Source: Thiomonas sp. X19
GTDB taxonomy: Bacteria; Pseudomonadota; Gammaproteobacteria; Burkholderiales; Burkholderiaceae_C
Reading direction: 5' to 3'
NCBI RefSeq assembly: GCF_900089495.1
Contig: NZ_LT605203.1
Location: 1,766,849-1,804,885 of the forward strand
Length of the DNA stretch: 38,037 bases
The position numbers were made by a program, and so were the translations under genes. Under the pieces are notes generated by a model. The model saw only the letters and a program-made list of their open reading frames with translations, did not search any database and was not told where the DNA came from. Shown in pieces: positions 14,304 through 37,546 of this stretch (the first letter of the stretch is position 1; each line of letters starts with the position of its first letter).

Positions 14304-14342
14304 AACAGCTTCGCGAGGGCACGGTCGCATCCATGTCCTGCC

Positions 14343-14348
14343 TATAAT
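14343..14348 (+). promoter_or_regulatory. Possible -10 box of tRNA-His
   Basis: A consensus TATAAT lies 17 bp upstream of tRNA-His, with a TG two bases before it. No good -35 box is seen at the right spacing, so the call rests on the -10 match and its position. Confidence 0.4.
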
Positions 14349-14364
14349 GACAAGTTGTTCTGCG

Positions 14365-14440
14365 GTGGCTGTAGCTCAGTTGGTAGAGTCCAGGATTGTG
14401 ATTCCTGTTGTCGTGGGTTCGAGTCCCATCAGCCACCCCA
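14365..14440 (+). tRNA. tRNA-His (anticodon GTG), integration target
   Basis: Acceptor GTGGCTG pairs with CAGCCAC; the D-arm is AGCTCAGTTGGTAGAG; the anticodon loop TTGTGAT gives GTG (histidine); the T-arm is GTGGGTTCGAGTCCCAT; CCA is encoded. The extra 5' G (-1) typical of tRNA-His is available at 14364. The integrase gene of the adjacent element runs antisense through it, which marks the tRNA as the attachment site. Confidence 0.97.
14376..14440. other. Probable att site within tRNA-His
   Basis: The integrase reading frame ends inside the tRNA (stop complementary to 14376-14378), and everything to the right is accessory. Tyrosine integrases encoded next to a tRNA normally recombine in its anticodon-to-3' part, so the crossover block should lie in about 14390-14440. 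The matching repeat at the far end is not in the window, so exact limits cannot be given. Confidence 0.6.
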
Positions 14441-15596
14441 AAGATTTCTTCTGAACTTGCGCGGACTTACCAACATCGCGCTGCGTTGATTCTGCGCCAA
14501 GTTCTGGCACTTGTTCCAGATTTGAGACAGAGACCCGGTCGGCCCAGGCGGCCAGATGACCGGGACTCAGGTGGGTGTAACGCTCCACCATCGCCAGACT
14601 GGCCCATCCCCCAAGTTCCTTCAGCACCATGGCAGGTGTGCCCGCCATCGTGTGCCAACTTGCCCAAGTATGGCGCAGATCGTGGAAGCGTAGCTCGGGC
14701 ACTCCCGCCCTGATGCATGCCTTGCGCCAGGCGTGATTGCAGATCTTCCCCGTGGGCGCATCGGCCGTTTTCGTGTCGCGGCGGTAGACCGGAAACACCC
14801 AGCGCCGGTGCTGGCCTCTCTGCTCGCGGAGAACGTCCAACGCATCGGCGTTTAGCGGCACCGGAATGTTCTTACCGGCCTTGGCCTGGTCGGCGTGAAT
14901 CCAGGCCGTGCCGCGCTCCATGTCGACCTGAGTCCAGGTCAGCATGCGCACGTTGGTTTCACGCAGGCCTGTTGACAGGGCGAAGCGGGCCATCTGGCGC
15001 AGATGCGCGGGCAGCTCGGCCAGCAAGATGTCGGCCTGCTCAGGCGTGAGCCAGGTCATGCGTTTGGCGGGCTGCGGTTGCTTGATGATCGGCGGCACGC
15101 GGTCGATCCATCCCCGCTTGTGCGCGTAGTGCAGGATTTTGGACAGCTCGGCCATGTGCAGGTTGACGGTGCCGGCCGCCGCTGGCTTGGGCGCAGGCGG
15201 TTTCTCGCCTGCGGCGATGGCACGCTCGATGGCACGCCGGTTCACCGGACAGTCGCGGCGCGCGGCCATGATCTGCCGCACGCGCTGCGCGTCGATGTCC
15301 TTGAGCGCCACGCCCTGGAGTCCGCCCTGGTAGGTCAGCCACGTCAACTTGAGCTTGATGTCCTCGATGGAGCGCCGATGGCCGAACTCCTGCAGCCAGG
15401 CCACGACGGCAGCATCCCAGGTTACGGACGGGGCTTGTCCAAGTCGCTTGACCCGCCAGAGGTCACTCGCAACCTGGGCGGCATATTCCTCCGCCTGCGC
15501 TCTTTCTGTGGTGCCAGCGCTTCGCTTAATGCGCTCGCCATCGACGGTGATGTCGATGTACCAAGTAAGGCTCTGTCCACGCCGATAGACACGCAT
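14376..15596 (-). CDS. int: Tyrosine site-specific integrase
   Basis: Catalyses integration and excision at the tRNA-His site. From the ATG at 15596 (MRVYRRGQSLTWYID) the protein has 406 residues; an upstream in-frame codon at 15644 is less likely. The N-terminal SAM-like core-binding domain is followed by the catalytic domain with Arg in LSTGLRETNVRMLTW, HDLRHTWASW (HxxR), a Trp in the GGWASLAMVERYTHLSPG segment, and the nucleophile Tyr in that same segment. The final residues (GLEPTTTGITILDSTN) are encoded by the complement of tRNA-His, so the C-terminus depends on the integration site. It overlaps the upstream HTH gene by 175 bp. Confidence 0.93.
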   Translation of the reverse strand: MRVYRRGQSLTWYIDITVDGERIKRSAGTTERAQAEEYAAQVASDLWRVKRLGQAPSVTWDAAVVAWLQEFGHRRSIEDIKLKLTWLTYQGGLQGVALKDIDAQRVRQIMAARRDCPVNRRAIERAIAAGEKPPAPKPAAAGTVNLHMAELSKILHYAHKRGWIDRVPPIIKQPQPAKRMTWLTPEQADILLAELPAHLRQMARFALSTGLRETNVRMLTWTQVDMERGTAWIHADQAKAGKNIPVPLNADALDVLREQRGQHRRWVFPVYRRDTKTADAPTGKICNHAWRKACIRAGVPELRFHDLRHTWASWHTMAGTPAMVLKELGGWASLAMVERYTHLSPGHLAAWADRVSVSNLEQVPELGAESTQRDVGKSAQVQKKSLGWLMGLEPTTTGITILDSTN

Positions 15597-15787
15597 GGTG
15601 CGTTCTCCTGCTTTTTCCCGTTGAGATATTGTGTGCGAACCCATTCGATCACGTCATCATCGATCAACGTGTAGCTGCGCCCCAGCTTTGCCGCCGGCAG
15701 ACCGTGATGGCGGATGTGGTTCACCACAGTTTCGGGGCAGATGTGCAGCATTTCGGCGGCCTGGATCAAGGTGAGCGTGTTAGCCAT
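15422..15787 (-). CDS. Small HTH protein, excisionase-like
   Basis: A 121-residue protein whose first 55 residues form a winged HTH of the MerR/excisionase kind: LIQAAEMLHICPETVVNHI, then HGLPAAKLGRSYTLIDDDVIEWV. Such proteins bend DNA at att sites or regulate the integrase. The remaining 65 residues are low in recognisable structure and overlap the start of int out of frame, so a shorter functional product is possible. Its start overlaps the repC end by 8 bp, placing it in the same transcript between repC and int. Role in excision is inferred. Confidence 0.7.
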   Translation of the reverse strand: MANTLTLIQAAEMLHICPETVVNHIRHHGLPAAKLGRSYTLIDDDVIEWVRTQYLNGKKQENAPCVSIGVDRALLGTSTSPSMASALSEALAPQKERRRRNMPPRLRVTSGGSSDLDKPRP

Positions 15788-17135
15788 GCGTTACCCAGGT
15801 GCTTGAATGCCCCGCATACGCGTCAGACTCGTCTGTGGAGGATTTTCGAGTCGTCGGTAGTGTCGAGGTGACAGTCCGCGCAATCAACCCCGTCAGGAGG
15901 CTGTTCTTCGACGTTGGCCTTCCGCATATGGAGCCAGCGAAGATGTGCGGGCGATTTTCCTCGTCGCCAGCAACAGTGCCAGTTTCAGCAACGGATGTCT
16001 GATCGCCATCGTGTTGTCGGCCAAAAGCCAGAGCGCCGGCAGGTGCGGGGCATGCTGCGGTGACCAGCCCCGGCAGGGGCGGGTTCGGTGCAGGGGTTGG
16101 GTGTGTCGGAGAGGCGGGCGAGCCATCAGCGCAGCCCGGCTCTCTCTCCCCCCTTTCATGGGGGAGCTTTATACGCCCCCGGTTTTCCGAGGGAGAGGCG
16201 TAGTCAAGAACACGGGTTGGCGTAGCCAAGAACACGGGTTCCGGGCTGAATTCAATGTTTTTTCGCTCAATGCGTACAAGCTGGCGGTCGATTCCGACGC
16301 TCCACTCGTCCGTCGGTAGCTCGGCCAGCGCCTTGCGCAACTGCTGGCGGCGCTCCCTTGCTGTCGCCCCTTTTGCGTCCTCGCCCCAGACGTGCCTTGC
16401 GAGCGTGTCCAGCCCAATCGGGGGGCAGGTGCCGTACCCGGGGCGCCAGCAGGCGAGCCAGTGGTACAGCACCTGGCCGACTGGCGACAGATTGCGGAAG
16501 ACCTGCATGCGCACGCGGCCGAACGAACCCTCACCGAGCATGGCCCGCGTGAGTCTGTAGTTCAGGGTCACGCTGACCGCGTTGCGGCCTTCCCAGGCGC
16601 CGCCTTTAATCAGGTGGGTGAACGCGCCGCACGCGCCGCTTGTGGCGGTGGTGACGATGCTGGACAAGCGCACGAAGCTGTCCCGGATCATCTGGTGCGC
16701 CCGTCCGTCTTCCGGGTCGCGCCCGATCTCCCGGCAAAGGGCCGCCAAGGTCGTTTCCAGGGTAAACGTGAGTTTGTCGGCGGCGGCGTTTGGCTGATTT
16801 TTAGGGGGAGTGGCAAGCAGGTCCTCGATGTCCACGCTCTGTTTCAAATCGGCATGCCGGTCCGCGTCGCGCAGGGCCAGGGCCGCGCACGCCAGCAGCA
16901 CGCCCAGATCCTGCGCGTCGATCTCCGGGCCGTTGAGAATGATCTCGCCGCCGTTCCAGGATTGACGCAGGTTCTCGATGTACCCCCTACGCGCCGGCTT
17001 GCCGTCCTTGCCCTTCTTGAGGCGGACGACTGGCTTGACCAGCCCCGACAAACCTAACGGCATGTCCTGCCGCGCAATGCCCGCACGCGCATCCATCGCC
17101 CGGCGCGCTGCTGGTGAGAGGTCAGATCGCGCCAT
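15780..17135 (-). CDS. repC: IncQ-type replication initiator RepC, with long C-terminal extension
   Basis: RSF1010-type RepC binds origin iterons and opens the origin for RepA. Residues about 60-280 follow the RepC pattern: ILNGPEIDAQDLGVLLACAA, a helix-rich segment, LNYRLTRAMLGEG, then LYHWLACWRPG, PIGLDTLARHVWG and ARERRQQLRKALAEL, which align by eye with the RSF1010 segments ending SIDTLCGYVW and KRRQRVREALPEL. RSF1010 RepC has about 283 residues; this one has 451. The extra 150 residues are Pro/Gly-rich, without visible domain, and include two abutting 22-bp direct repeats, so part of the tail may be origin sequence or open by chance. It overlaps repA by 14 bp upstream and the HTH gene by 8 bp downstream. 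Confidence 0.8.
   Translation of the reverse strand: MARSDLSPAARRAMDARAGIARQDMPLGLSGLVKPVVRLKKGKDGKPARRGYIENLRQSWNGGEIILNGPEIDAQDLGVLLACAALALRDADRHADLKQSVDIEDLLATPPKNQPNAAADKLTFTLETTLAALCREIGRDPEDGRAHQMIRDSFVRLSSIVTTATSGACGAFTHLIKGGAWEGRNAVSVTLNYRLTRAMLGEGSFGRVRMQVFRNLSPVGQVLYHWLACWRPGYGTCPPIGLDTLARHVWGEDAKGATARERRQQLRKALAELPTDEWSVGIDRQLVRIERKNIEFSPEPVFLATPTRVLDYASPSENRGRIKLPHERGEREPGCADGSPASPTHPTPAPNPPLPGLVTAACPAPAGALAFGRQHDGDQTSVAETGTVAGDEENRPHIFAGSICGRPTSKNSLLTGLIARTVTSTLPTTRKSSTDESDAYAGHSSTWVTHG
16197..16240. repeat. Two abutting 22-bp direct repeats (iteron-like)
   Basis: Copies at 16197-16218 and 16219-16240 differ at one base (GGCGTAGTCAAGAA versus GGCGTAGCCAAGAA, both continuing CACGGGTT). 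The unit is not a multiple of three, so the copies are read in different frames within the repC tail. The unit length resembles IncQ iterons, but only two copies are visible, fewer than in known IncQ origins. An imperfect inverted repeat (16174-16200) and a 7-bp GC hairpin (16146-16166) lie just to the left. Confidence 0.6.
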
Positions 17136-18006
17136 TGCGCCGCTCCTTCATAGCTCGGTGGTCCGCGATGCCCGGTTTTTGCAGCGCATAGGCCATGAGC
17201 CGCCCGCCGGGCTGCTTTCTGAGCCACTTGGAGTCGATCGGCTTACCGTTGTTGGCCTTGACCTGCGCCAGACGGATGTAAAAACGCCGTTCGAGGTCGT
17301 CGGCAATGCCGTACTCGTCCGCCTCCGACGCGCTCATGACGGTCAGGTTGAGCTGCAGGCGCACCGCGGTGGTCAGGCTGGACGCCCCGCGCGACCGCTC
17401 CCAGTCGTCCCCGTCCTTGGATTTGCCGATGTGGTGCAGAACCAGGATGGCGCATCCCGTGGCCCGCGCGATGCCGCCCAGGGCGCGCATGAGCGTCGTC
17501 ATGTCGCCGTTGTTGTTCTCGTCGCAGTCGTGCAAGAACGCCAGGGGATCGAGAATGACCAGCCGGCGCCCCTCAGCGAGGGCCCGCAGCTTGGCGTAGA
17601 ACGGCCCATGCCCGATAACTCCGCCGGGCTGCCGCTGGATCACTCGCAGGTCATCCTGCTCGTCGGTCCAGCTCTGCACGTCGAGCTCTGCATCGATTTG
17701 CGCGAGATCGTCGAGGCTCAGCGCCGCCCGTAACTCGTTCAATCGATACTGGACCACCTTGGGAATGTCTTCGCCCATGACGATGGCAACAGGACCACTG
17801 GCCGGGGCCGGCCAGAGCGCATCGCCCATGCCCGTACAAGCGGCCTTGCCCAGTGCGACAGAGATGCCGATATGCAGGGCCAGAAAGCTTTTGCCGACCG
17901 CGCCTTGCCCGACGATGAGGCCAACGGTGCCCGCGAGCATGCCGGGGAGCACAAAGTCCAGGTGGGGCGGTACTGCCGCTTCGGCGAATGTGACGCGTTG
18001 GGCCAT
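17122..18006 (-). CDS. repA: IncQ-type replicative helicase RepA (RecA-like)
   Basis: Hexameric RecA-fold 5'-3' helicase that unwinds the IncQ origin. From ATG 18006 (MAQRVTFAEA) it has 294 residues, close to RSF1010 RepA. It shares the RepA pattern: LDFVLPGMLAGTVGLIVGQG then the Walker A GQGAVGKSFLALHI near residue 33, acidic GEDIPKVVQYRLNELRA, Walker B EGRRLVILDPLAFLHD, sensor VLHHIGKSK, SRGASSLTTAVR, and the C-terminal RRFYIRLAQVKANNGKPI. The longer open frame upstream of 18006 has no homology. Its end overlaps repC by 14 bp, preserving the IncQ repA-repC order. No RepB/RepB' primase gene is seen nearby. Confidence 0.87.
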   Translation of the reverse strand: MAQRVTFAEAAVPPHLDFVLPGMLAGTVGLIVGQGAVGKSFLALHIGISVALGKAACTGMGDALWPAPASGPVAIVMGEDIPKVVQYRLNELRAALSLDDLAQIDAELDVQSWTDEQDDLRVIQRQPGGVIGHGPFYAKLRALAEGRRLVILDPLAFLHDCDENNNGDMTTLMRALGGIARATGCAILVLHHIGKSKDGDDWERSRGASSLTTAVRLQLNLTVMSASEADEYGIADDLERRFYIRLAQVKANNGKPIDSKWLRKQPGGRLMAYALQKPGIADHRAMKERRNGAI

Positions 18007-18007
18007 G

Positions 18008-18343
18008 TCACACCCCCTGCGCGTCAGCGATCGCTGCCGACGCGAGCAACTGGCGAGCGCGTTCGTCGCGCTCGGCCTTGCGGGAGTCGATCCAGGCCCG
18101 TATTTCCGACTCCGGCCAGGCCATCTCGAAGCCTTGGCCGCGCTGCCCCAGGTGCAGGGGCATGGGGAATTTGCCCTCGCGTACAAGCTTGTAAATCGTC
18201 GTGCGGCTCAGGGCGGTGGCTGCGCATACAGCAGTGAAGCGCATCAGCGGATCGAAACCCTCGGGCAGCTTGGCCCGGCGCGCTGCGCCGCGTGCGGTGC
18301 CGGTCGATGCATTCGACGAGGCGGTTTGGGTATGCATTGGCAT
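18008..18343 (-). CDS. AlpA-like HTH regulator
   Basis: A 111-residue protein starting at ATG 18343, which is preceded by a good ribosome site (AAAGGAA, 7 bp away); the open frame further upstream is ignored. After a Ser/Ala-rich N-terminal 40 residues it has an AlpA-type HTH: LMRFTAVCAATALSRTTIYK, then LVREGKFPMPLHLGQRG and WPESEIRAWIDSRKAERD. AlpA-type proteins regulate excision or integrase genes in phages and islands. It ends 1 bp before the repA start, so it probably belongs to the replication operon and may regulate it. Confidence 0.82.
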   Translation of the reverse strand: MPMHTQTASSNASTGTARGAARRAKLPEGFDPLMRFTAVCAATALSRTTIYKLVREGKFPMPLHLGQRGQGFEMAWPESEIRAWIDSRKAERDERARQLLASAAIADAQGV

Positions 18344-18505
18344 AAAAATTCCTTTCAGGTAGAAGGCCGCAATCGGCGTGCCTTCCCAGATTCGGGCGCG
18401 TGTTGCACGAGGTTGGCGCAACTGGCGTGATGTGTTTGACTGGAACGGGCGCGCGCAGCGATGCGCGAGGCGCAAGCTGCAAGCACTGCCGCGCTCGTGG
18501 GGGCT

Positions 18506-18718
18506 CTATTCGCGCTGCGCGCCGGCAGTCGATGGACTGACGGGCGGACTGGCGGGATCGATGGCACGCATCAGATCCGCCACTCGCCAGCGGGTGAGCC
18601 CGCCGATCCGCACGGGTGGGGGCAGCACGCCGGCGCCGACAGCGCGCCAGAACGTGGAACGGCCCATCGACAGCATGCCGGCGCCTTCCACGGCAGTGAC
18701 CAGAATCTTGTCGGTCAT
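18506..18718 (-). CDS. Small HTH DNA-binding protein (AlpA/MerR-like)
   Basis: A 70-residue protein of the short AlpA/excisionase HTH class: VTAVEGAGMLSMGRSTFWRA, then VGAGVLPPPVRIGGLTRWRVADLMRAI. Its start overlaps the stop of the upstream 195-residue gene by 4 bp (ATGA), so the two are translationally coupled. A second AlpA-like gene follows after a 162-bp gap with short GC-rich inverted segments but no convincing terminator. Target unknown. Confidence 0.75.
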   Translation of the reverse strand: MTDKILVTAVEGAGMLSMGRSTFWRAVGAGVLPPPVRIGGLTRWRVADLMRAIDPASPPVSPSTAGAQRE

Positions 18719-19302
18719 GACGCCTGCTCCTCGCCACAGTCAGCGAACAGAGCAAAAAGCTGGGCGTGGTTGCAAGCCACGGCATTCACCTCGCCGTTAA
18801 CCGTGTCCGCCAGACTCCCGGCCTGGTAGCTCAGCGTGTTGAGCACACTCGCCAGATCGCCAAGCAGGCCCCAAAGCTCTCCACTGGCCTGCTCTCGCGC
18901 AGCAATGACCGCCCGTCGCGCCAGCTTCGCCGTCGCGGACAGACTCTCCGCTTCGCTCTGTACGATCGCATCGATCTCGGTGATCGTCCGCGCCAGGCGG
19001 GCGGCGTCATGGCCTTTGGGCTGCCGGGTCTCCAAGGGGCGATCGCGGCGGTCGAGTTCGGCGTTTGCATCGCTGGCCGCCTCGCCTTCGTCGTTGTACC
19101 CGCTCCCCCCGCCGATCTCCTCATCGAGTGAGTCGGTCAGGCGCCAGGCCCATTGCCCGGATGGGGCGCGGTACACGCTGGCCGTCAGACCATCGCGCTT
19201 GATCGCGAAGCTGTCCGAAAAATCGGGTGAGGGGATGTTGCTGCTGGCCGCCTGGTGGCGGGCCGAAGAAGACCCATTGCGGGCCTCTGCAGGGTGCGTC
19301 AT
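18715..19302 (-). CDS. Unknown 195-residue protein, first gene of the replication operon
   Basis: No family recognised. After a polar N-terminus (about 35 residues) there is a beta-like stretch FAIKRDGLTASVYRAPSG then QWAWRLTDSL, an acidic linker rich in Asp/Glu/Ala, and a largely helical C-terminal half (ARLARTITEIDAIVQSEAES, SGELWGLLGDLASVLNTLS). It ends CGEEQAS. It is the first gene after the C4-like RNA leader, and its ribosome site (AGAGGAG, 19311-19317) lies inside the downstream target of that RNA, so its translation is the most likely direct object of control. Function cannot be inferred further. Confidence 0.7.
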   Translation of the reverse strand: MTHPAEARNGSSSARHQAASSNIPSPDFSDSFAIKRDGLTASVYRAPSGQWAWRLTDSLDEEIGGGSGYNDEGEAASDANAELDRRDRPLETRQPKGHDAARLARTITEIDAIVQSEAESLSATAKLARRAVIAAREQASGELWGLLGDLASVLNTLSYQAGSLADTVNGEVNAVACNHAQLFALFADCGEEQAS

Positions 19303-19311
19303 GGTGAAACT

Positions 19312-19350
19312 CCTCTGTGCGGTGTCGAACCGCCGCCCGCTGTCAAACGG
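19312..19350 (-). promoter_or_regulatory. Downstream target (b'-like) of the C4-like RNA, overlapping the ribosome site
   Basis: In the minus-strand transcript, GTTTGACAG (19348-19340) and GCACAGAGGA (19320-19311) are complementary to the central RNA. GCACAGAGGA pairs perfectly over 10 bases with the hairpin loop region of that RNA and includes the start of the AGAGGAG ribosome site of the 195-residue gene. Confidence 0.65.
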
Positions 19351-19352
19351 GT

Positions 19353-19440
19353 GGGGCGGAACCTGACGGGTTGACAGACCGGCACAGAGGAACCGGCGAG
19401 CCTTGCGGCTCCCCGCCAGGCCCGCCCCATAAGGGAGCTA
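19353..19440 (-). ncRNA. C4/CI-type antisense RNA in the operon leader
   Basis: C4 RNA of phages P1/P7 and CI RNA of P4 are processed from the leader of the transcript they repress and pair with flanking sites. Here the minus-strand RNA shows a closing stem GGGGCGG/CCGCCCC (19428-19422 with 19359-19353), an inner hairpin GAGCC-GCAA-GGCUC with flanking GGCG/CGCC pairing, and a second hairpin CCGG-(10-nt loop)-CCGG whose loop exposes CCUCUGUG. The next bases, CUGUCAACCC, are single-stranded. Both unpaired segments are complementary to sites on either side (19500-19527 and 19312-19350). The core of 76 nt is close to known C4/CI sizes. Family assignment is from recall of the motif, not from a model search. 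Confidence 0.72.
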
Positions 19441-19499
19441 CCTGACGCGCAAAACAAAGGCCGCGATCATCGCATGGACGGCGCGGCCTGCTGCTTGCG

Positions 19500-19527
19500 C
19501 CTCTGTGTTTTCCGGGCTGTCAAACCC
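19500..19527 (-). promoter_or_regulatory. Upstream target (a'-like) of the C4-like RNA
   Basis: Near the 5' end of the predicted transcript, GGGTTTGACAG (19527-19517) and CACAGAGG (19507-19500) repeat the two blocks found before the 195-residue gene and are complementary to the loop and tail of the central RNA. CACAGAGG pairs perfectly; GGGTTTGACAG pairs with one bulged base. Confidence 0.65.
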
Positions 19528-19549
19528 GTATCTCTTTCGAGATGGCGCA

Positions 19550-19578
19550 AGTATTCGGCAATGGGCGCGGGGTGTCAA
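19550..19578 (-). promoter_or_regulatory. Promoter of the replication/integration operon leader
   Basis: On the minus strand a perfect TTGACA (19578-19573), a 17-bp spacer and AATACT (19555-19550) predict a start near 19542, only 15 bases upstream of the a'-like target. The 230 bp between this promoter and the end of the helicase gene (19579-19809) show no gene and only a small palindrome (CCGATAGCATCGG near 19787). Confidence 0.62.
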
Positions 19579-19809
19579 GCGGTGTTGCGGGCTGATTCGG
19601 GTGCGAGGCAGCGTGTAATCGGTCGGGGAGGTGGTCGCGGGAGCGCCCGAGCCGTGACTCTTTGTGTTCAATCCGTCTCGCCTCGGAGCATCAGTGACTC
19701 GCCCCGAACGTCACATCTTCGGCCTTTGCCGCCGTTGGGGCAGCTTGTGGCGACGGCCGGTATGCCACAGCCAGCGGTCGCCGATAGCATCGGTTTCAGC
19801 ACTCGCAGC

Positions 19810-20871
19810 TCACGCAGTCACCGGATGGCGCACCCCAGCGGTCTCAATGAACCTCTTGAGCAGCGACTCCGGCATAAGGTGGAGGTCCCCGCGGGCTCGC
19901 GAACAGGCGACGTACAGCTTGTTTCTCGACAGCGCGGCTAGGCTCGCAAGCCCTCCCTCTTCGTATTTCCTCCAGGCCACCATCGTCATGACAACGCAGA
20001 CGTCTTGATAGTGATCCTGCCCCTTGGATGCACCCCACGTTTGCGAATGGCACGAGTACTTCTCTTGCTCCTTGAAGAAAAGCTTCACGGTGTCGCTGCT
20101 GGCATACAGCTGTGCGGCCGTGTTCGCGTCGCGGACGATGGACACAGACGTGGCGCGATCTATCGCGGGATGAATGTCCACACCAATTTGTGTCCTGATG
20201 AACTCACAGACCGTCGAGCTGCAGCGATGACTGTTCAGAAGTGATGTTGTATCGATCGTGAGCCCAGCACCGCGTAGGCTGACTTTGAAGCGCTCGTAGC
20301 TGTCGTGGAGTCCCTTGTTAACGGCGCCGTCAACGCTTGTTGAGTAGGTATGCTGGAAGAAATCTCCAACTAGAAGAACTTCCACGTCAGCTGCGACGAT
20401 CTGCTTTAGCAAATTGAAATCGTGGCCTCCGAAGTCCTGCACCTCGTCGACAAAGACCTTGTCGTAGTACCGCGCGATGCGGCGTTGCAGTACAGTTATA
20501 CAGCCTTTGACGTCGAGCAGCTTTGCCATGCGAGCGTGATAGACGCGACCTCTTGAGGTCACGTAGCGAGCCGGGTTGGTGAGCTTCAGCCGCGAGGTGT
20601 GATCAGCGGGCCGCTCGAAGCAAATGCCTTTCGTCTTCATCTCTTCCAGCAGCAGCGGCCGATAGCAGAACGAGCTCAAGAAAGTGAAATAGGTATTGAC
20701 CGTGATGTTCTCAGGGATGTAGCCAAATTTCGCAATCACCCGGCGACGGATTTCCACGCAGTTGTTTTCGGTGTACGTAATCAGTAGCACTCGCTTTTGG
20801 AGGTCGAGCTCATTGACCAAGCTGGTGGTCTTGCCCGAGCCCGCCACCGCGAAAACTACTCGTTTATCCAT
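19810..20871 (-). CDS. Short UvrD-like helicase, GajB-like partner of the OLD nuclease
   Basis: Superfamily 1A helicase with all main motifs: Walker A VAGSGKTTSL at about residue 10, Ia LLITYTENNCVEIRRRV, II VFVDEVQDFG near 140, III VLLVGDFFQHTYS, an Arg-bearing LLNSHRCSST, V-like SKGQDHYQDVCVV, and VI KLYVACSRARGDLHLM near the C-terminus. At 353 residues it is much shorter than Bacillus GajB (about 494): it starts almost directly at Walker A and has little room for the 1B and 2B subdomains. It overlaps the OLD-family gene by 16 bp, the same order as gajA-gajB. In Gabija GajB assembles with GajA and is thought to sense or process DNA ends during infection. The gene is last in the defence operon. 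Confidence 0.78.
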   Translation of the reverse strand: MDKRVVFAVAGSGKTTSLVNELDLQKRVLLITYTENNCVEIRRRVIAKFGYIPENITVNTYFTFLSSFCYRPLLLEEMKTKGICFERPADHTSRLKLTNPARYVTSRGRVYHARMAKLLDVKGCITVLQRRIARYYDKVFVDEVQDFGGHDFNLLKQIVAADVEVLLVGDFFQHTYSTSVDGAVNKGLHDSYERFKVSLRGAGLTIDTTSLLNSHRCSSTVCEFIRTQIGVDIHPAIDRATSVSIVRDANTAAQLYASSDTVKLFFKEQEKYSCHSQTWGASKGQDHYQDVCVVMTMVAWRKYEEGGLASLAALSRNKLYVACSRARGDLHLMPESLLKRFIETAGVRHPVTA

Positions 20872-22421: not shown

Positions 22422-22490
22422 TTCTACTCCCTGGCACAGCGCCATTTGCTCGCAAACCAACCTCGATGGCCGCGGCCCACGGAATGCGCT

Positions 22491-23411
22491 TCATGCCACC
22501 CCTTCGTTCTGGCGTGCAGGCATGGTGTGGCGGCAGCGCCCGCAGGCCCAGAAACGGGTTCCGTTGGTGGAGTTCGTTTTCAGGGTCATCTTGGAACCGC
22601 AGTTCACACAGGTGGCACGCCAGAAGTCGCCTTCCGTTGCAACGGCCAGCAGATGCTGCTGCACCTCGGCGGGTTGGGTCTGAATGTGACGAAGCAAACG
22701 GGCTCCGTCGAACAACGTGAGGTCGTGCCTGCTGGCCAACTCTTGTGCTGCCGGCATGAACGTAGACGAGGTGAAGTAAATGGCCGTAGCGACTCGATGA
22801 TCTGTTTTCAGACCGAGGAACTCGCGAATCTGCACTTCACCAACTTTCTTCCCCGACCAGTTCTTGCACTGCACGATGCCGGTCAACTGCGCCTTGGATG
22901 CATCGCTGTAGAGTCGAATATCGATGCCACCATCGGCGCCAAACGCTTGCGACGACGTGATGTGTCCTTCGTGTTGCAACAAAGCTTCGCACAGGGTTTC
23001 AAAGCACCGCCACTCGATCAGGTCGAACACAGCGTGTGACCAGACGATGGGACGTGCAGGTGTGTCGGGTGTGCGCTCGGCTGGACGCCAGCGGTTGCGA
23101 ATGTCGTCGTCGATCAGCACGCCGCTAGGCTGATCGGCAGGGCGTGGTGGCGCGGTCCGACGGCTTCCAAAGACCGGTTCCACAGGCGTCCAGTCCAAAC
23201 CCTTGCCCCGGTTGGACGGCAGGACGTGCAGGCCCAAGAAGAACGCCCCGAGGGCAACAGCCAGCCACGCCCAAGGGCGGAAGACCTCGAACATGATCGT
23301 CAGCGGGCTGCTCCGAAGAAAGGTCAGCGCAACCAGCACCCCCACGCCGATGGCGAGTAGCGTCAACCCCATCTCGCCGAGGCTCTTGGACTTGCGGCGG
23401 CGTGCCATCAT
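22491..23411 (-). CDS. Membrane-anchored Mrr-like restriction endonuclease with zinc ribbon
   Basis: A 306-residue protein with three parts. The basic N-terminus RRRKSKS is followed by two membrane helices at about 15-32 and 46-64. A PD-(D/E)XK Mrr-like domain (about 130-245) has FETLCEALLQHEGH, GADGGIDIRLYS with the metal Asp, and GIVQCKNWSGKKVGEVQIREF with Q-x-K. A C-terminal four-cysteine zinc ribbon follows, CVNCGSKM and CGRCRHTMPAR. Mrr-type enzymes cut modified DNA. The membrane anchor would place the nuclease at the inner membrane, perhaps on incoming DNA (inference). Its start codon overlaps the Res stop by one base (TGATG), so it is an integral member of the RM operon. ATG 23408 is an equally possible start. 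Confidence 0.82.
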   Translation of the reverse strand: MMARRRKSKSLGEMGLTLLAIGVGVLVALTFLRSSPLTIMFEVFRPWAWLAVALGAFFLGLHVLPSNRGKGLDWTPVEPVFGSRRTAPPRPADQPSGVLIDDDIRNRWRPAERTPDTPARPIVWSHAVFDLIEWRCFETLCEALLQHEGHITSSQAFGADGGIDIRLYSDASKAQLTGIVQCKNWSGKKVGEVQIREFLGLKTDHRVATAIYFTSSTFMPAAQELASRHDLTLFDGARLLRHIQTQPAEVQQHLLAVATEGDFWRATCVNCGSKMTLKTNSTNGTRFWACGRCRHTMPARQNEGVA

Positions 23412-26083: not shown

Positions 26084-26088
26084 GACGG

Positions 26089-27603: not shown

Positions 27604-27645
27604 GGAGTGTTGTCTTGTGTTGGGTTGACGCGTGGTCGCCGATGC

Positions 27646-29737: not shown

Positions 29738-32197
29738 TCACCGCCCCATCCCTTGCTCCCGCTTGCGCTGTCTCTCGATCGAGGCCATGAAACCGCCGAG
29801 GCCGGCGGCCACACCGTCGCCGCGACGGGTGACGACTCGATCCACGACTTCGGCAATCAGCGTGTGCCCATTGACTCCTTGGCGCGTGGCCCGGTCATGC
29901 GCCGCAATAAACGCCTTGACCGGCCCGCTGCTGCAGTCGCCGTCCAACCAATGTTCCATCGCTTGTTCCATCGCTTGCGCGTGGCTGGTCGATGCAGGCG
30001 CAGTTGCTTGTTTTTCGGGCGCCGCAGGCCGCGCTTGCTCCGGTGCGGCTTGGGTCGGGGCCGGCGCGGAGTTGCCCACAGGTTTTGTGGATACGCTTGC
30101 GCCGCTTTGGTGCCCGCGCTCCCGAGCCAACATTTCTTGCATTGATTCATACGCGGCCCGCCCTAGCTCTGTCAGCTTGTCGCGCTCATCGATAAGCACC
30201 GTCCGAGCGGGATCGGTGAGCACGGCCCGCTCTTTGGCCGAGAGTGGTGTCCCGCGCCCAGCCGCTTCAAGCGCCCGCCAGCCTTCGCCGGACAAGCGTC
30301 CCAAAATGCCTTGGCCAGCCATGGGTGAGATCGACGCGGGTCGAGAAGCATGTCGCTCCGAGGCGGAGACGGAAGGCTTGACCGCAGCCAGCTTCTGCTT
30401 GGCTTGCGCATCGGCAACGATCGCCTGCAGATCGTCATCGGTCACGGTGATGCCGAGCCGCACCGCCTGGCGGGCGGCGCGTTCGCGGAACTCGCTGCTG
30501 CCGGTAATGGCGACCTTGCCGCCATACTTCTGCGCGGCGATGCGCAGTGCAGCTTCCAGGCTGTCGTCCGCCTTGTCGTGCATGACGATGCGCGGCCCGG
30601 TGTCGGTGAACTTCTCCCGATCATCCTTTCCCCGATAGATCACCAGTTGACGCTTGTGGTCGATCTCGGCGTGCAGTGCGGCCACGGTGAGATTGCGCAA
30701 TGGGTCGAGTTCTTCGCCCTCGATGCCATCTTGTTGCGGATACGCCTTGCTCTTGCGCTGCTCGCGGTAACGGATCCCGCGCAGCGCAGCCTGGGCGGCT
30801 TCGTCGCCCTGCTCGGCCTGCTGCTCAAGCCACGTGCGCCAGACCTGGGCGCGCGGGACCTTGGCCGCGATCTCTTTGCGCTCTGCGGCCTGGCGCTTCT
30901 GCAGTTCCTCGCGCCGTGCCGCAGCCACCCCCGCCTGATAAGCAATTGCCACCTGTGGGAGCATGCCGTCGCGCTTGTGTTCGGCAATGGCCGTCGCGCG
31001 CATCCGGCGCAATTCCGCTGTCAGCATTTGCCGCTCGGCCCGGTGCCGTTCGGTCAGCGCTTTGCGCAGGGCGGGGCGCCTTGCCCGCAATGCAGCTTGC
31101 TCATGCTTGAACCGCTCGGCCAGCTCCTTGCGCGCGGCCTGACGCTCAAGTCGCCGGTCTGTCCTGTCTGCGCGATCCCCGCGCACGCTCGGGCCGTGGA
31201 GCTGCCCCTTGCCGCCATCGAGCACGCGTTGATAGGTCAGGCTTGGTTCGGTCTGAGTTGCGTCGGGTGGCCGGTACGGCCCCAGCTTCCTTTCCAGCTC
31301 TGCCTTGCTTGCCCAGCGTCCAAGCTGTGACGCCTTGGCGGCCAGCACGCGGCCATCGTCCAGCGTCGTTGTGACGATCATCCCGGAGCCTTTGGGCTGG
31401 ATGATGCAGCCATACTGCGCCGCGGCTTGGTGGATGGTGTCCCACGTTGCGCCAGGGTTGGCCAGCGTTGCCTTGATCGCTCTGCCGGGGCTGCCTGCGA
31501 CCCATCGCTGGAACGCGTCGGCCCCGATGTTTTGCTCGGCGCGGTGCGCCTTGTCGCTGACCCGCATGTCGGAGTCTTTGAGAAGACCGCGCTGCGCCCG
31601 CTCAGTGCGGCTCATGCGGACAATGTCCAGTTCCGGCTTCTGGCCGGGTCCTTCACGCTGCACGGCGATCCACGGCCCGTTGTCGTGCCGCCAGCCTTGC
31701 ACGCCCTCGATCTCCCGCATGGCCTTGTCCAGCTTGAGCCAGTCCCAACCCGGCACCTTCTGGATGCGGTGCGTGTCGGGATGCACCCGGTTGACGACCA
31801 GGTGCACATGGTCGTTGTCGGTGTCCTTGTGAATGGCCCAGATGGCTTGATGCTCGGCCATGCCCACGGATCGCATCACGTGGTCTGCGGCCTGCGCAAC
31901 CTGCTGGCGTGTGGGGTGCTCACCCTCTTTCCACGAGAACTCGATGTGATACGCCGGGTGTCCAGTCTGCCGCCTGGCCTGCACGGCTGCCGCCGTGCTG
32001 TCGAGGATGGCAATGGCGCTCATGCGATCCTCGTGCGCGTCGAGTGGGCAATCCAGATTGATCGTGCCCATGTCCGGTGCGCCAAAGCGCTCACGCAATG
32101 CGACCTGATCGTCGCGGTCCCGGGCGACGTAGCGCACCACGTCGCCGAAGCCTTTCCCACTTCCGGCGCTCGTCTTGCGGATGACTTTACCGAGCAT
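29738..32197 (-). CDS. MOBP-type relaxase with LPD7-like domain
   Basis: Nicks the transfer origin and pilots the strand into the recipient. The 819-residue protein starts MLGKVIRKTSAGSGKGFGDV followed by VRYVARD; the Tyr there (about residue 23) is the expected nucleophile. Motif III is IHKDTDNDHVHLVVNRVHPD near 140, very like RK2 TraI and pTF-FC2 MobA. A long basic coiled-coil middle (about 360-500, rich in Arg/Glu) follows. Near 520-620 (LHAEIDHKRQLVIYRGKDD, KYGGKVAITGSSEFRERAAR) is an LPD7-like domain. The C-terminus is Ala/Gln-rich then helical (about 760-819). It overlaps the MobC-like gene by 11 bp. oriT was not located. Confidence 0.87.
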   Translation of the reverse strand: MLGKVIRKTSAGSGKGFGDVVRYVARDRDDQVALRERFGAPDMGTINLDCPLDAHEDRMSAIAILDSTAAAVQARRQTGHPAYHIEFSWKEGEHPTRQQVAQAADHVMRSVGMAEHQAIWAIHKDTDNDHVHLVVNRVHPDTHRIQKVPGWDWLKLDKAMREIEGVQGWRHDNGPWIAVQREGPGQKPELDIVRMSRTERAQRGLLKDSDMRVSDKAHRAEQNIGADAFQRWVAGSPGRAIKATLANPGATWDTIHQAAAQYGCIIQPKGSGMIVTTTLDDGRVLAAKASQLGRWASKAELERKLGPYRPPDATQTEPSLTYQRVLDGGKGQLHGPSVRGDRADRTDRRLERQAARKELAERFKHEQAALRARRPALRKALTERHRAERQMLTAELRRMRATAIAEHKRDGMLPQVAIAYQAGVAAARREELQKRQAAERKEIAAKVPRAQVWRTWLEQQAEQGDEAAQAALRGIRYREQRKSKAYPQQDGIEGEELDPLRNLTVAALHAEIDHKRQLVIYRGKDDREKFTDTGPRIVMHDKADDSLEAALRIAAQKYGGKVAITGSSEFRERAARQAVRLGITVTDDDLQAIVADAQAKQKLAAVKPSVSASERHASRPASISPMAGQGILGRLSGEGWRALEAAGRGTPLSAKERAVLTDPARTVLIDERDKLTELGRAAYESMQEMLARERGHQSGASVSTKPVGNSAPAPTQAAPEQARPAAPEKQATAPASTSHAQAMEQAMEHWLDGDCSSGPVKAFIAAHDRATRQGVNGHTLIAEVVDRVVTRRGDGVAAGLGGFMASIERQRKREQGMGR

Positions 32198-34224: not shown

Positions 34225-35916
34225 TTACTCCGAATGACCGATTCGAATCTGGATACCGCCGCCACCGCCTTCGTGGCGCGCAATGTCGTCCTTGGTCCCT
34301 GCAGCGCGTCCGAGCCCGTCTTTCATCACGTTCCATGGGGATTTCCCTTCGTCCCCCTTCTCGCCTGCATGCGTTCCTGCGTCACTGGCTCCCGATCCAG
34401 TCGGCAAGTTCGGTGCACCGAGCGCGTCCGCGCCACCAGTTGCAGGAGCCGTCGGACTGGCACCGGAAGAAGCCGCTGAAGCGCCTGCGCCGCTTTGCCC
34501 ATCCTGTTTGAGCCGCGCAGACAGCGGACTGGCGGGGCCAGTCTGCAACTGCCCTTGCGTGAGCTTGTCGGTCATCATGGATTGCGCTTTCGTGCCGGTC
34601 GTTGCAGTGTTTGGCGTCACAGTGCCTTTGCTCGCCCCAGCGCCTGAATTGCCCATGCGCCCTGCGTCCGCAACGCCTTTGGAAGGCGCACCAGAGGCAG
34701 GAGCAGGTCCGCCCGGTGCGCTCCCTGCTCCGCCAACGCTGCCCATCGAACGAGCGCCTGGCTTCGATCCGCCGATGCCGCCTGGTGAGCCGCCGCCAGC
34801 GCCGGTCATGGCCCCGAGAGACGCGAGCTTGTCGGCACCACCAATCCCACCAGCAGCGGCGCCCGAACCACCGGAGCCCGCGCCCACGAGCCCGGCCAGC
34901 TTGTTCAATCCGCCCTGCGCGGCGCCAACGGCGCCGGCGTAGCCTGCAACGGCTGCAGCTCCGGCACCAGCCACGCCGGCGGCGACGCCAGCCGCACCAC
35001 CCGCGACGTTGCCCAGCGTCATGCTCGGACTGCCATTCATCATGGATGCAGCCAGCCCCGGAACCTGCATGCCCATCACGCCGTAGATCAGCATCGCCGT
35101 GCCGACCGAGAGCAAATCCATCGGCGGCAGGGATTTTTTGCTCGTCATCCAATGGTTGATGTAGGCGATCTCATTGCTGATGAGGTTTCCACCAAGCCCC
35201 GCGATGGCATAGATGATCAGCAGCTTGATTCCTACGCTGACCATGTAGCCGATGTACGTCTCTCCGAAGGTGCTGGTCAGTCCCGATCCAGTGAATCCCA
35301 GCAGCACAAGACCTGCGCCGCCAACGAGGTAACTTTCGATCAGCGTCATCAAAAGCTGCAACGCGACCAGGCTGAAACCGATCAGCGCCATGACCGACGT
35401 CAGGGCGACGATCATTGCCAGCAGAAAGTTGCTCCCCACGTGCAGGATCCCGCCCGGCTGCGCCTCGAACGCGGCCCAAAGCTTGTCGATCACGGAGAAG
35501 GCTTGTCCGATGATTCCCGAGGGGGTCATCGCCGCCGCACTCGCGCCCCCGATTCCTTGCCCCATTTTGGTGAAGCTCTGCAGGATCATCGGCATCCAGG
35601 TCGGCGCCTCCTTGATGATCGTGTAGAAGAACGCCAGGGAAGACACCTTGAGCGTCATGCCGGCGAAGAAGTCGGACAGGTCGTTCTTCTTGAGGACATT
35701 CTTGATGCCCCACCAGGCCAGATCGAGGCCGGCCAGGCCCGTAAAGATGCTGAAGGCGTAGCCCTGCGCCGTGGTCATCCATCCGCCCGAGGCGGTCTGG
35801 AAGTTCGTGGCGATGGCGTCGAGGTAGCCAGCGCTGTTCGCCGGTGCCGCGTGCGCCGTCGCGCCTGCAAGCAGCAGGACGAGCACGCCGCCCCACTTGA
35901 TGGATGTTTTTCTCAT
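34225..35916 (-). CDS. trbL: P-type conjugative transfer protein TrbL (VirB6-like)
   Basis: Polytopic inner-membrane component of the type IV secretion channel. The 563-residue protein has a signal-like start (GVLVLLLAGATAHA). TrbL core segments follow: GLAGLDLAWWGIKNVLKKND, then SFTKMGQGIGGASAAAMTPS. After that come five or six membrane helices, including LLAMIVALTSVMALIGFSLV, the LLMTLIESYLVGGAGLVLLG stretch and IKLLIIYAIAGLGGNLI. From about residue 310 the tail is Gly/Ala/Ser-rich and of low complexity, ending GGGGGIQIRIGHSE, a known property of TrbL/VirB6 proteins. A GGGGG ribosome site lies before ATG 35916. Neighbours TrbJ and EexN-like agree with the trbJ-K-L order. Confidence 0.9.
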   Translation of the reverse strand: MRKTSIKWGGVLVLLLAGATAHAAPANSAGYLDAIATNFQTASGGWMTTAQGYAFSIFTGLAGLDLAWWGIKNVLKKNDLSDFFAGMTLKVSSLAFFYTIIKEAPTWMPMILQSFTKMGQGIGGASAAAMTPSGIIGQAFSVIDKLWAAFEAQPGGILHVGSNFLLAMIVALTSVMALIGFSLVALQLLMTLIESYLVGGAGLVLLGFTGSGLTSTFGETYIGYMVSVGIKLLIIYAIAGLGGNLISNEIAYINHWMTSKKSLPPMDLLSVGTAMLIYGVMGMQVPGLAASMMNGSPSMTLGNVAGGAAGVAAGVAGAGAAAVAGYAGAVGAAQGGLNKLAGLVGAGSGGSGAAAGGIGGADKLASLGAMTGAGGGSPGGIGGSKPGARSMGSVGGAGSAPGGPAPASGAPSKGVADAGRMGNSGAGASKGTVTPNTATTGTKAQSMMTDKLTQGQLQTGPASPLSARLKQDGQSGAGASAASSGASPTAPATGGADALGAPNLPTGSGASDAGTHAGEKGDEGKSPWNVMKDGLGRAAGTKDDIARHEGGGGGIQIRIGHSE

Positions 35917-35928
35917 GGCAACCCCCGA

Positions 35929-36234
35929 TCAGAAAGCCCCAGGGCCGGGTTTGGCACTGTTTTGTTCGTCGTAGAAGGAGTTCGATGCGGCATCGCAGGC
36001 GGGATCCCACGTCTTGGCCTGATCGGCCCGGTGTGGCGGCTGATAGGGATTGATGTATCCCTCGTTGTTGTTGCACCACTTCACTTCGGCGGCGCGCTCT
36101 TTGAGGTGCGCGCTGAACCATGCCTTGTCGTGCCCGGAATAAGGGCTCGGGCCGGTGGAACCGGAGCCGTGCGAGCACGCACCCAGGGCGGACAGAGACA
36201 GCAAGCAGGCGAACAGGCGGAAGGTGGGTTTCAT
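35929..36234 (-). CDS. Entry-exclusion lipoprotein (EexN/TrbK-like)
   Basis: A 101-residue lipoprotein: signal peptide MKPTFRLFACLLSLSALGAC with lipobox LGAC (Cys about 20). The mature part has the EexN pattern of a helix ending in ER then WCNNN (HLKERAAEVKWCNNNEG) and a second Cys in DPACDAASNSFYDE. Such proteins block redundant transfer between cells already carrying the element. It lies between trbJ and trbL, the position of trbK in IncP plasmids. GGAG precedes the start. Confidence 0.75.
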   Translation of the reverse strand: MKPTFRLFACLLSLSALGACSHGSGSTGPSPYSGHDKAWFSAHLKERAAEVKWCNNNEGYINPYQPPHRADQAKTWDPACDAASNSFYDEQNSAKPGPGAF

Positions 36235-36269: not shown

Positions 36270-36962
36270 TCAGAATCCGCCAGGTTGGATGGGGGCGTTG
36301 AGGGTTGCGGCTGCGCCTTGCGTTGGATCGTTCTTGCTATGGGCAATGAGGCTCAGTGCATTGAGCTGCGCCTGGTTGCCCGCGTCGATGTCCGCCTGCA
36401 GGCTCTGCATCTGGTTGACCATCAGCCCGGAAATCTGGTTGCCGGCCTGCAGCACCTGCATGCGCCCTGATGCCGACTGGCTGGCGTTCTGGATCGCCTG
36501 TAGGGCAGACTGGGTGGTCTGGAAATTCGCGCTGCTGAGCTGGTATTGCTGCAGCGTGCCGGCAATCTGATGATCGAGGTTGTCCGTCCACTGCGACAGG
36601 CTCTGCGCATAGTTGGCGAGCACGGCGTTCGGCGCTCCGTACTGCTGCTGGATTGCGGCCACGGTGTTTTGCGACGCGTAGCTCAGCCCCTGGGCATTGC
36701 CGACGAGCTGGACCAGTTGCTGAAGCGGAGCCGCCGCGTTGGTCCAGAGCTGCTGCGGCATGTTCTGCAGGTTGCGCGCCTGGTTGAACACCATCTGGAA
36801 CTGCGCCTGGAGCTGCTGCGCCTGCGTGGCGTATTGCTCGACCAGCGTCAGTTCCTGCACGATCTGCTCGGGGAACGTGGCCCCGGCGATCATGCCCGTG
36901 GCGTGCGCTGGCGTCGTGATGATGGCCGCGAGTGCGGCGAGGGTGAGAATGCGTTTCTTCAT
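36270..36962 (-). CDS. trbJ: P-type conjugative transfer protein TrbJ (VirB5-like)
   Basis: A periplasmic or pilus-associated component. The 230-residue protein from ATG 36962 (MKKRILTLAALAAIITTPAHA, cleavable signal) has an AGGAG site 9 bp upstream. The mature sequence opens GATFPEQIVQELTLVEQYAT and then QAQQLQAQFQMVFNQARNLQ, followed by long Gln/Ala-rich helices, typical of TrbJ. The longer open frame upstream is a shadow of the next gene. It starts 14 bp after the stop of the 61-residue gene. Confidence 0.88.
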   Translation of the reverse strand: MKKRILTLAALAAIITTPAHATGMIAGATFPEQIVQELTLVEQYATQAQQLQAQFQMVFNQARNLQNMPQQLWTNAAAPLQQLVQLVGNAQGLSYASQNTVAAIQQQYGAPNAVLANYAQSLSQWTDNLDHQIAGTLQQYQLSSANFQTTQSALQAIQNASQSASGRMQVLQAGNQISGLMVNQMQSLQADIDAGNQAQLNALSLIAHSKNDPTQGAAATLNAPIQPGGF

Positions 36963-36976
36963 GGTTTTGCTCCTGG

Positions 36977-37162
36977 TCACAGGCTGCTGGCGAACTGGCC
37001 GAGTCGCTCGATTGCCTCGCCGATCGTTTCCTTCCCTTCGGCGAGCAGTTCCAGGTGTGCCTGGAGGATTCCACAGGCGATACCCCAGCCACGGCGTTCG
37101 CCAATGATTTCGACGGCATCGTTGATGGGGCCGTGGTCCTGGAATTGCAGGGTGTCGGTCAT
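36977..37162 (-). CDS. Unknown 61-residue acidic protein
   Basis: MTDTLQFQDHGPINDAVEII, then GERRGWGIACGILQAHLELL and AEGKETIGEAIERLGQFASS; two predicted helices, no membrane segment, cytoplasmic. An AGGAGA ribosome site sits 7 bp before ATG 37162 and the gene lies just before trbJ. Its leader (37163-37208) is a near copy of that of the next gene upstream. Function unknown; position suggests a transfer-operon regulator or chaperone. Confidence 0.62.
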   Translation of the reverse strand: MTDTLQFQDHGPINDAVEIIGERRGWGIACGILQAHLELLAEGKETIGEAIERLGQFASSL

Positions 37163-37208
37163 CGTGCTTCTCCTGATGTGGTTGAGTTCTGCCGTTCAGC
37201 GCCGGGCG
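37163..37208 (-). repeat. Leader repeat copy 2
   Basis: On the minus strand CCCGGCGCTGAACGGCAG and AACTCAACCAC, then CAGGAGA before the ATG at 37162. It matches the leader at 37547-37592 at roughly three quarters of positions, including the ribosome site. Confidence 0.6.
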
Positions 37209-37210
37209 CC

Positions 37211-37546
37211 TCACCAGGCGCGCAGCAGGCCGCCGAGGGACCTGAGGCTGCGACTAGTTTCGAGGTCCAATCCCGCGCTCGGCGCTCGGCCACGTCGGCG
37301 GTCGTCCAACTGGCAGCGGATGCAGAGGATGAATCTTTCGCGCGCTGCGGCCCCGTTGGTGCCGTTAGGGTCCAAGTCGTTAGGGTCCATGGTCAGGATG
37401 CTGATCCAGGGGCTGCTGGGGTGGTAGCCTTTCGCCTCTAGCAATGCCCGGATTTCGTCTCGTTGCTGAACGCTGTTCACCCCTGCCGTTTGGTGAGGGT
37501 CCCCCCGGAGGGATTCGTTGGTTGTCGGGGTCGTGGTGTCGCGCAT
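37211..37546 (-). CDS. Unknown 111-residue protein
   Basis: From ATG 37546 (MRDTTTPTTNESLRGDPHQT), with AGGAG upstream, the protein has a polar N-terminus, VQQRDEIRALLEAKGYHPSS, PWISILTMDPNDLDPNG, ARERFILCIRCQLDDRRR, and a basic C-terminus ending GGLLRAW. Single Cys pair CIRC. No family recognised. It is the first gene visible in the transfer operon and is preceded by the repeated leader. Confidence 0.55.
   Translation of the reverse strand: MRDTTTPTTNESLRGDPHQTAGVNSVQQRDEIRALLEAKGYHPSSPWISILTMDPNDLDPNGTNGAAARERFILCIRCQLDDRRRGRAPSAGLDLETSRSLRSLGGLLRAW

Follow-up and report, generated by a model that had tools for sequence, protein, structure and literature searches.

Organization of the locus

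The window, that is, the whole stretch of 38,037 nucleotides of Thiomonas sp. X19 DNA that was analysed here, contains, except for its last 0.5 kb, an element of 24.2 kb that lies between identical 49-bp repeats (Table 1). On the minus strand of the element a leader precedes an operon encoding a 195-residue protein, a small helix-turn-helix (HTH) protein, an AlpA-type regulator, RepA, RepC, an excisionase-like protein and an integrase. Read from 19578 to 19302, the leader contains in succession a promoter-like site, TTTGACAG, CACAGAGG, a terminator-like hairpin, a C4 antisense RNA, TTTGACAG again, CACAGAGG joined with the ribosome-binding site (RBS), and the start of the 195-residue gene. An earlier note on this DNA had claimed the order of promoter, upstream target, structured RNA and downstream target, and this order is indeed present; the terminator-like hairpin at 19489-19451 before C4, which gives the leader the layout of the prophage IsrK and P4 seqA-CI regions, goes beyond that note.

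Table 1. Positions in the window of the leader, operon and carrier features
Feature	Position	Strand	Basis
Promoter-like site of the operon, TTGACA-17-AATACT, sigma-70-like	19550..19578	-	consensus scan, 10/12
Upstream target a1, TTTGACAG, complement of C4 linker	19517..19524	-	sequence
Upstream target b1, CACAGAGG, complement of C4 loop	19500..19507	-	sequence
Terminator-like hairpin and T tract between upstream targets and C4, IsrK-type position	19451..19489	-	prediction
C4 antisense RNA (Rfam RF01695)	19347..19434	-	covariance model, 66.0 bits (gathering 45)
C4 recognition loop, CCTCTGTG	19383..19390	-	C4 model and sequence
C4 recognition linker, CTGTCAA	19371..19377	-	C4 model and sequence
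Downstream target a2, TTTGACAG	19340..19347	-	sequence
Downstream target b2, CACAGAGG (19319-19312), overlapping RBS CACAGAGGAG	19310..19319	-	sequence
195-residue leader gene	18715..19302	-	ORF
70-residue HTH_17-like protein; start overlaps leader gene stop	18506..18718	-	matches below Pfam cut-off
AlpA-type HTH regulator/excisionase-like protein	18008..18343	-	PF05930, 53 bits (cut-off 21)
RepA-like AAA_25 ATPase (start read from sequence)	17122..18006	-	PF13481, 110.1 bits
RepC, IncQ-type replication initiator family	15780..17135	-	PF06504, 57 bits (cut-off 22.8)
Two tandem 22-bp repeats (iteron-like)	16197..16240	-	just after RepC domain
Excisionase-like HTH_17 protein	15422..15787	-	PF12728, 39.8 bits (cut-off 27)
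Tyrosine integrase, overlapping tRNA-His 3' end	14376..15644	-	PF00589, 104.7 bits
49-bp direct repeat, attachment-site candidate, at tRNA-His 3' end	14396..14444	.	identical partner 517 nt past window end
TraI/MobA(P) relaxase	29738..32197	-	NF041893, 375.2 bits (cut-off 250)
TrbL	34225..35916	-	TIGR02783, 180.4 bits (cut-off 128.85)
101-residue lipoprotein-like ORF between trbJ and trbL, TrbK position	35929..36234	-	position and sequence only
ORF containing TrbJ	36270..37214	-	TIGR02780, 105.6 bits (cut-off 100.55)

The leader RNA and its targets

The structured RNA, which had been named as of the C4 type with the Rfam model as the proposed check, belongs to RF01695 by the covariance model (E 8.2e-11), with a score well above the threshold where the lack of a hit would have counted against the claim. 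Its loop and its linker each have exact complements in the upstream and in the downstream pair of targets, so that the matching blocks claimed for both sides are found letter for letter. The downstream pair extends to the RBS, with b2 running into AGAGGAG, which lies 7 nt 5' of the ATG of the 195-residue gene. Upstream, a1 forms the loop of a short CGGG/CCCG hairpin, both in sub-threshold Rfam alignments of isrK and c4-a1b1 and in the predicted fold.

It is noted that the loop motif, as CACAGAGG or CCTCTGTG, has these three occurrences and no others on the two strands of the window, TTGACAG alone being commoner (7 places). When the ordered pair, TTGACAG and then CACAGAGG within at most 25 nt, was looked for in dinucleotide shuffles, it appeared in none of 20000 for the 160-nt upstream flank and in 10 of 20000 for the 60-nt downstream flank, and a chance origin of the target pairs was considered and rejected on these counts and the few occurrences of the loop motif. 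The promoter-like site is the only one found by the consensus scan in 18600-19850, where shuffles give a mean of 0.1. It is thereby confirmed that what the earlier note had observed is real, lies above chance and was correctly named.

The hairpin between the upstream targets and C4 has 8 pairs by our own rule, and a stricter rule reduces it to an inner 5-pair hairpin at 19474-19462. With it, the predicted arrangement is of the isrK type, in which a target-bearing hairpin and then a terminator come before a C4-like RNA. At a relaxed threshold over 19200-19700, the models of isrK (RF01394; 26.4 bits against a cut-off of 50, E 0.00094 for the 501 bases) and c4-a1b1 (RF03163; 23.4 against 46.7 bits) both cover the upstream part of the leader below their cut-offs. 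As far as can be read from the letters, the upstream part has the arrangement of IsrK and of the a1/b1 targets, yet by the model test it is a member of neither family.

Folding prediction for the uncut RNA pairs the stretch just before C4 (about 19463-19436) with the RBS and the start codon (19319-19299), so that the RBS may be closed in cis with no need of C4 in trans. Such pairing is predicted in both elements of this genome that carry a C4 (see below) and partly at locus L014, and is absent at locus L009. Together with the order of the leader, which equals that of isrK-orf45, this pairing would suit a mode in which the short terminated RNA is the main regulator, activating in trans a read-through mRNA that has folded itself into an inactive form, while C4 has a mainly structural part. 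This mode is quite unlikely, as the isrK match lies well below the cut-off and C4 persists as an 87-nt structure of its own, in which loop and linker track the letters of both targets.

Genes of the operon

The 195-residue protein has no Pfam or PHROG match. The gene list claimed before (an unknown protein, two HTH proteins, RepA, RepC, an excisionase-like protein and an integrase) is borne out by family matches, except that for the 70-residue HTH protein the matches are weak (PF12728, 21.6 bits with a cut-off of 27; PHROG 66, 21.4 bits). The PHROG matches of the operon genes are of integration and replication types only. The leader gene and the HTH gene, AlpA and RepA, RepA and RepC, RepC and the excisionase gene, and the excisionase and integrase genes overlap or abut, and a gap of 162 nt separates the 70-residue HTH gene from the AlpA gene. 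By consensus scan no promoter- or terminator-like site is found in 14300-19310; the 162-nt gap could hold a promoter invisible to such a scan.

The operon, for which an IncQ-like replicon and an integrase had been proposed, does encode an initiator of the RepC family and an integrase, and it has tandem iteron-like repeats (2 x 22 bp) near repC. IncQ iterons are about 20-22 bp long. The RepC is 30-34% identical to plasmid IncQ RepC proteins over a third of its length, and general Pfam scans recognised no primase family (cf. IncQ RepB) among the ORFs scanned. Tandem 22-bp repeats occur at 6 of 8 other repC loci scanned; those of the window lie inside the repC reading frame, past the conserved domain.

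Note also that a third RepC locus of the genome (L143, C3:3081175) encodes a RepC 90% identical to that of the window over 336 residues and has nearly identical 22-bp repeats and a diverged RepA; no C4 is found in the 18 kb around it. Replication cross-talk within one genome is possible between the two.

The carrier element

The relaxase, TrbJ and TrbL, all above their NCBIfam cut-offs, are genes of the IncP island/GIsul2 type. A NikA-like protein is above the Pfam cut-off, with its NCBIfam match below cut-off, and a ParA-like ORF falls just below the Pfam cut-off. No other secretion-system gene is recognised among the scanned ORFs of the window, outside of which the last 0.5 kb of the element lies. 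Since relaxase, TrbJ and TrbL are present and no other such gene is recognised, the conjugation-type element claimed before looks mobilizable rather than self-transmissible. A prophage or a phage satellite was considered as the carrier and rejected, because relaxase and Trb genes are present instead and the PHROG matches of the operon are of integration and replication types only.

Adjoining the leader, at 19810-29507, lies a defence cargo with a Gabija-like pair (best matches of 362 bits for GajA and 173 bits for GajB), a type III restriction gene with its methylase gene, and a pair that resembles AbiLi/AbiLii (AbiL-like). A third copy of the tRNA-His repeat, with 34 bp identical, lies 12.5 kb beyond the window element (L119, C3:1805450-1817925), which suggests that a second segment has accreted at the same site.

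A second C4 element in the same genome

The genome has a second C4 (56.6 bits), about 459 kb from that of the window, which precedes a 72-75% identical copy of the 195-residue gene and a copy of the 70-residue HTH gene that is 86% identical to that of the window. After the HTH gene come an AlpA-like ORF, read from the sequence, and a DUF3987 protein with DNA primase matches, and these two occupy the place of RepA/RepC. The second element is about 29.6 kb long and bounded by repeats, of 133 bp (96%) and of 44 bp. It encodes an integrase of its own and a relaxase that shares 56% identity with that of the window; its isrK match is weaker than that of the window (24.4 bits, E 0.35). It also carries type I restriction-modification genes and a reverse transcriptase that strongly matches defence group UG19 (L052 8441-10501, 592 bits).

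The leaders of the two elements are largely alike, and the letters that differ include those of recognition. In both copies of target a, TTTGACAG of the window is replaced by TTTGGAAG in the second element, with the linker changing from CTGTCAA to CTTCCAA; in target b, CACAGAGG is replaced by GCAAAGG, with the loop changing from CCTCTGTG to CCTTTGC. As a result, the complements of loop and linker to their own targets are 7-9 nt long, as compared with 3-4 nt when the two elements are crossed. The other differences are in the terminator hairpin, in a 2-nt gap and in two changes in the C4 stems. Judged by duplex energy, the window C4 prefers its own targets when the whole region or the loop is considered; its linker alone has no preference for its own downstream target (-8.7 own; -8.7, -9.7 and -11.0 crossed), and one crossed whole-region energy equals the own one (C4 of L002 on the target of L009, -34.8; own, -34.6). 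Heteroimmune variants should show this pattern, in which the RNA and the two copies of each target have changed in step.

The second element also bears on how far the control by C4 would extend. It can be argued that C4 controls the 195-residue gene only, perhaps a regulatory protein, with the replication genes responding indirectly or not at all: the gap of 162 nt follows the 70-residue HTH gene in the window, and in the second element it is the AlpA-like ORF and DUF3987, not RepA/RepC, that come after the shared leader, leader gene and HTH gene. We hold this restricted control to be rather unlikely, considering that the consensus scan shows no promoter-like site inside the operon and that a replication-type gene lies downstream of the module in both elements. 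The reading that we prefer is that C4 represses the whole operon.

Pairing of C4 RNAs with their own flanks

C4 was matched at E <= 0.001 in 14 of 100 relatives, and matches were also found in 24 of 369 genomes of the class, the own genome being included in both surveys, and in 1 of 12 RepA-bearing genomes; the surveys of the 100 relatives and the 369 class genomes used stricter filters, by which weak C4s are lost. In all there were 83 C4 places (20 in the own genome and the relatives, 9 in the RepA-bearing genomes and 54 further ones in the class), for 58 of which DNA was obtained; after L016 and L112 were dropped for short flanks, 56 loci entered the pairing test, in which the longest exact complement of the C4 loop or linker to its own flanks is compared with that to permuted flanks (10000 permutations).

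The mean longest complement to own and to permuted flanks was 7.07 and 5.38 for loop and upstream flank (z 13.7), 7.34 and 5.04 for loop and downstream flank (z 17.7), 7.20 and 5.51 for linker and upstream flank (z 13.5) and 6.88 and 5.02 for linker and downstream flank (z 14.4), the z values being overstated because the C4 loci are related. None of the 10000 permutations reached the observed mean in any of the four comparisons, so that the 56 loci prefer their own flanks over swapped ones, in line with the blocks claimed for the window. In the same order of comparisons, the own flank was best or tied at 24, 28, 23 and 22 of the 56 loci and strictly best at 10, 15, 6 and 6, the latter being few because short words recur.

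At 39 of the 56 loci the downstream loop match is at least 7 nt long, and at 38 of these 39 an ATG stands 3-16 nt behind it. A terminator-like hairpin is present in the 75 nt before C4 at 45 of the 56 loci, as compared with 10.2 expected from shuffles; it is missing by our rule at the other 11, of which 7 are from one genome.

C4 matches can be crowded within a genome. Four on the same strand lie within 1.4 kb (G715:C9:1700-3092, partly in L115) in a genome of 1.5 Mb, and genomes G372 and G728 have nine and ten matches, respectively. The loops of the nine C4s of G372 (L076-L084) differ from each other, as if many immunity groups coexist.

Occurrence and relatives

RepC (PF06504) is encoded in 7 of the 38 genomes with a C4 match (14 + 24 searched, including G019, matched only below cut-off), and the window's copy is the only one within 10 kb of a C4. 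Two other cases of RepC with C4 concern different contigs of the same genus, and in one case RepC and C4 are 35 kb apart. C4 before RepC as a common pairing is thus rejected, with one of the seven RepC genomes having both within 10 kb. Among the 12 RepA-bearing genomes, the one with a C4 does not have it near its RepA, and no C4 over cut-off is present in 15 partly overlapping RepA/RepC stretches or in the 7.6 kb of the nearest RepA/RepC relative in a scan of genome contigs (L003).

The protein of the leader gene has 22 matches among about 5.8 billion proteins, itself and the second copy in its own genome included. By genome, with the own one counted, it is matched in 2 of 399 of the order, 4 of 299 of the family and 3 of 28 of the genus; in these scans all matches outside the own genome are weak and partial. 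The gene has no plasmid match, and it has no relative in two viral-contig scans, which are able to find only relatives sharing short conserved peptides; one leader DNA pattern and the RepA protein also have no match in viral contigs. When the leader DNA was compared with plasmids and with phages, one record was obtained from each, with 20% and 30% of the query covered.

As C4 is known mainly from phages and prophages, one may ask whether the leader is a decayed remnant of phage origin that no longer controls the replication and integration operon. This is very improbable: none of the target letters has decayed, the two viral-contig scans, with the limit on detectable relatives just mentioned, show no relative of the leader gene, and letters have changed together in the RNA and the targets between the two elements of the genome. 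Such joint change points to continued selection.

Records of C4 outside of phages exist. C4 antisense RNA is listed for Proteobacteria and phages in the portion available to us of PMC2864571; C4 on islands or plasmid-like replicons appears in table rows for Xylella, one of them with isrK beside C4 (in the accessible part of PMC12189769), and on Mycetohabitans chromids (excerpt of PMC12696581). A literature search that left out most subscription papers gave no description of the union of C4 with a mobilizable island.

Proposed mechanism

Our model starts from what is observed, namely the identity of the RNA, the exact target pairs, the overlap with the RBS, the terminator-like hairpin, and the letters changed together between the two elements. 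Based on these, we propose, with a probability of roughly three in four, that the leader forms a complete immunity RNA module of the phage type, carried by a mobilizable element that resembles IncP islands, and that C4 represses the operon. We infer the transcription, termination, processing, repression, immunity and switch between integrated and replicating states that the model contains, as follows.

Transcription from the promoter at 19578 would have two outcomes. In the first, it would end at the hairpin of 19489-19451, and the product would be a short IsrK/seqA-like RNA with a1 and b1 as decoy targets. In the other, it would read through, giving C4 plus the operon mRNA, and C4 would then be excised from the read-through RNA, presumably by RNase P, as is inferred from P1/P7. 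After its excision, the loop and linker of C4 would pair with a2 and b2 on the mRNA and mask the RBS of the 195-residue gene. The untranslated operon would be subject to polarity, with RepA, RepC, the excisionase-like protein and the integrase kept low and the element quiet in the chromosome. Moreover, a relative that enters with identical targets would be silenced by C4 in trans, and relatives with changed letters would be expected to escape.

In the model the main mode is that of P1/P7 C4, to which the upstream target and the terminator would add a control of the P4/IsrK type, with the short RNA as a possible decoy. The earlier note had proposed a P4-like circuit. The layout of such a circuit is present, and since the downstream target sits on the RBS, the translation-blocking and polarity mode of P1/P7 C4 fits at least as well as that of P4 CI. 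If instead only the P4 CI mode operated, C4 would act on the nascent upstream target to bring about premature transcription termination, with pairing at the RBS being secondary. The upstream target and the terminator-like hairpin do precede C4, and the accessible text of PMC4825925 describes P4 seqA/CI/seqC in this way and suggests the same for STnc1160; the position of the downstream target on the RBS speaks against it, and we consider this mode alone unlikely. As a whole, the earlier interpretation is supported.

The RNA family and the type of island are each already known. New are the union of C4 with the island, the occurrence of one leader in front of RepA/RepC in the window and of DUF3987 in the second element, and the concerted change of letters from one element to the other. 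The IME review PMC5704250, as far as its text was available, heads its section on maintenance after excision 'An Unexplored World', and the word 'antisense' is absent from that text; a candidate control element of phage type for IME maintenance is here visible in the sequence. The two islands of one genome, in which loop, linker and four target segments have changed together, are a natural compensatory experiment, by which the decision of islands to stay, to replicate or to tolerate relatives becomes testable with simple reporters. Immunity groups of islands would moreover be predictable from sequence alone. More widely, there is about an even chance that IncP-island-like elements took over C4 as an RNA immunity and incompatibility system, which would silence the operon for replication, excision and integration, exclude islands of the same specificity and drive the letters to diversify, so that two such islands can share a genome.

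Comparison with known systems

In phages P1 and P7, which are heteroimmune, C4 is part of the immunity system (anti-repressor control). With P1/P7 C4 (RF01695) the window RNA shares the structure above the model cut-off, the pairing by loop and linker, and the downstream target on the RBS; it differs in fronting the replication, excision and integration operon of a mobilizable island. Processing by RNase P and a specificity set by few letters are described for C4 in the accessible text of the Acinetobacter C4 paper (PMC5320573).

With P4 CI and its seqA/seqC, the leader shares an antisense RNA between two targets before replication genes, the order in P4 being upstream target, CI RNA, downstream target and then the replication genes (available portion of PMC4825925). 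By contrast, P4 is a phage satellite, and the window element has relaxase and Trb genes and other replication proteins. For IsrK/STnc1160 of the Salmonella prophage Gifsy-1, the same partial text gives a promoter, a short terminated RNA, a read-through RNA with a processed second RNA, and a small leader ORF. The window leader has the promoter, a predicted short terminated RNA, the read-through layout and the small leader ORF in common with it; it differs in an isrK model score below the cut-off and in downstream genes that, by the scans made, are not of the anti-repressor or anti-terminator kind.

An antisense RNA beside repA of a RepA/RepC locus is also shared with R1162-like plasmids (RF00043), R1162 being an IncQ plasmid. 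That RNA belongs to another family, which is over cut-off beside a related locus (L029, 1 of 15 stretches) and not in the window.

The carrier resembles the IncP islands and GIsul2, for which the accessible text of PMC5704250 gives a MobP/TraI relaxase (IncP island), TrbJ and TrbL separated by a small gene, a tyrosine integrase, RepA and/or RepC, and insertion at guaA. The window element shares the relaxase, TrbJ, TrbL, the small gene between trbJ and trbL, the tyrosine integrase and RepA/RepC. It differs in lying at tRNA-His rather than at the guaA 3' end, and it adds the C4 leader and the defence cargo.
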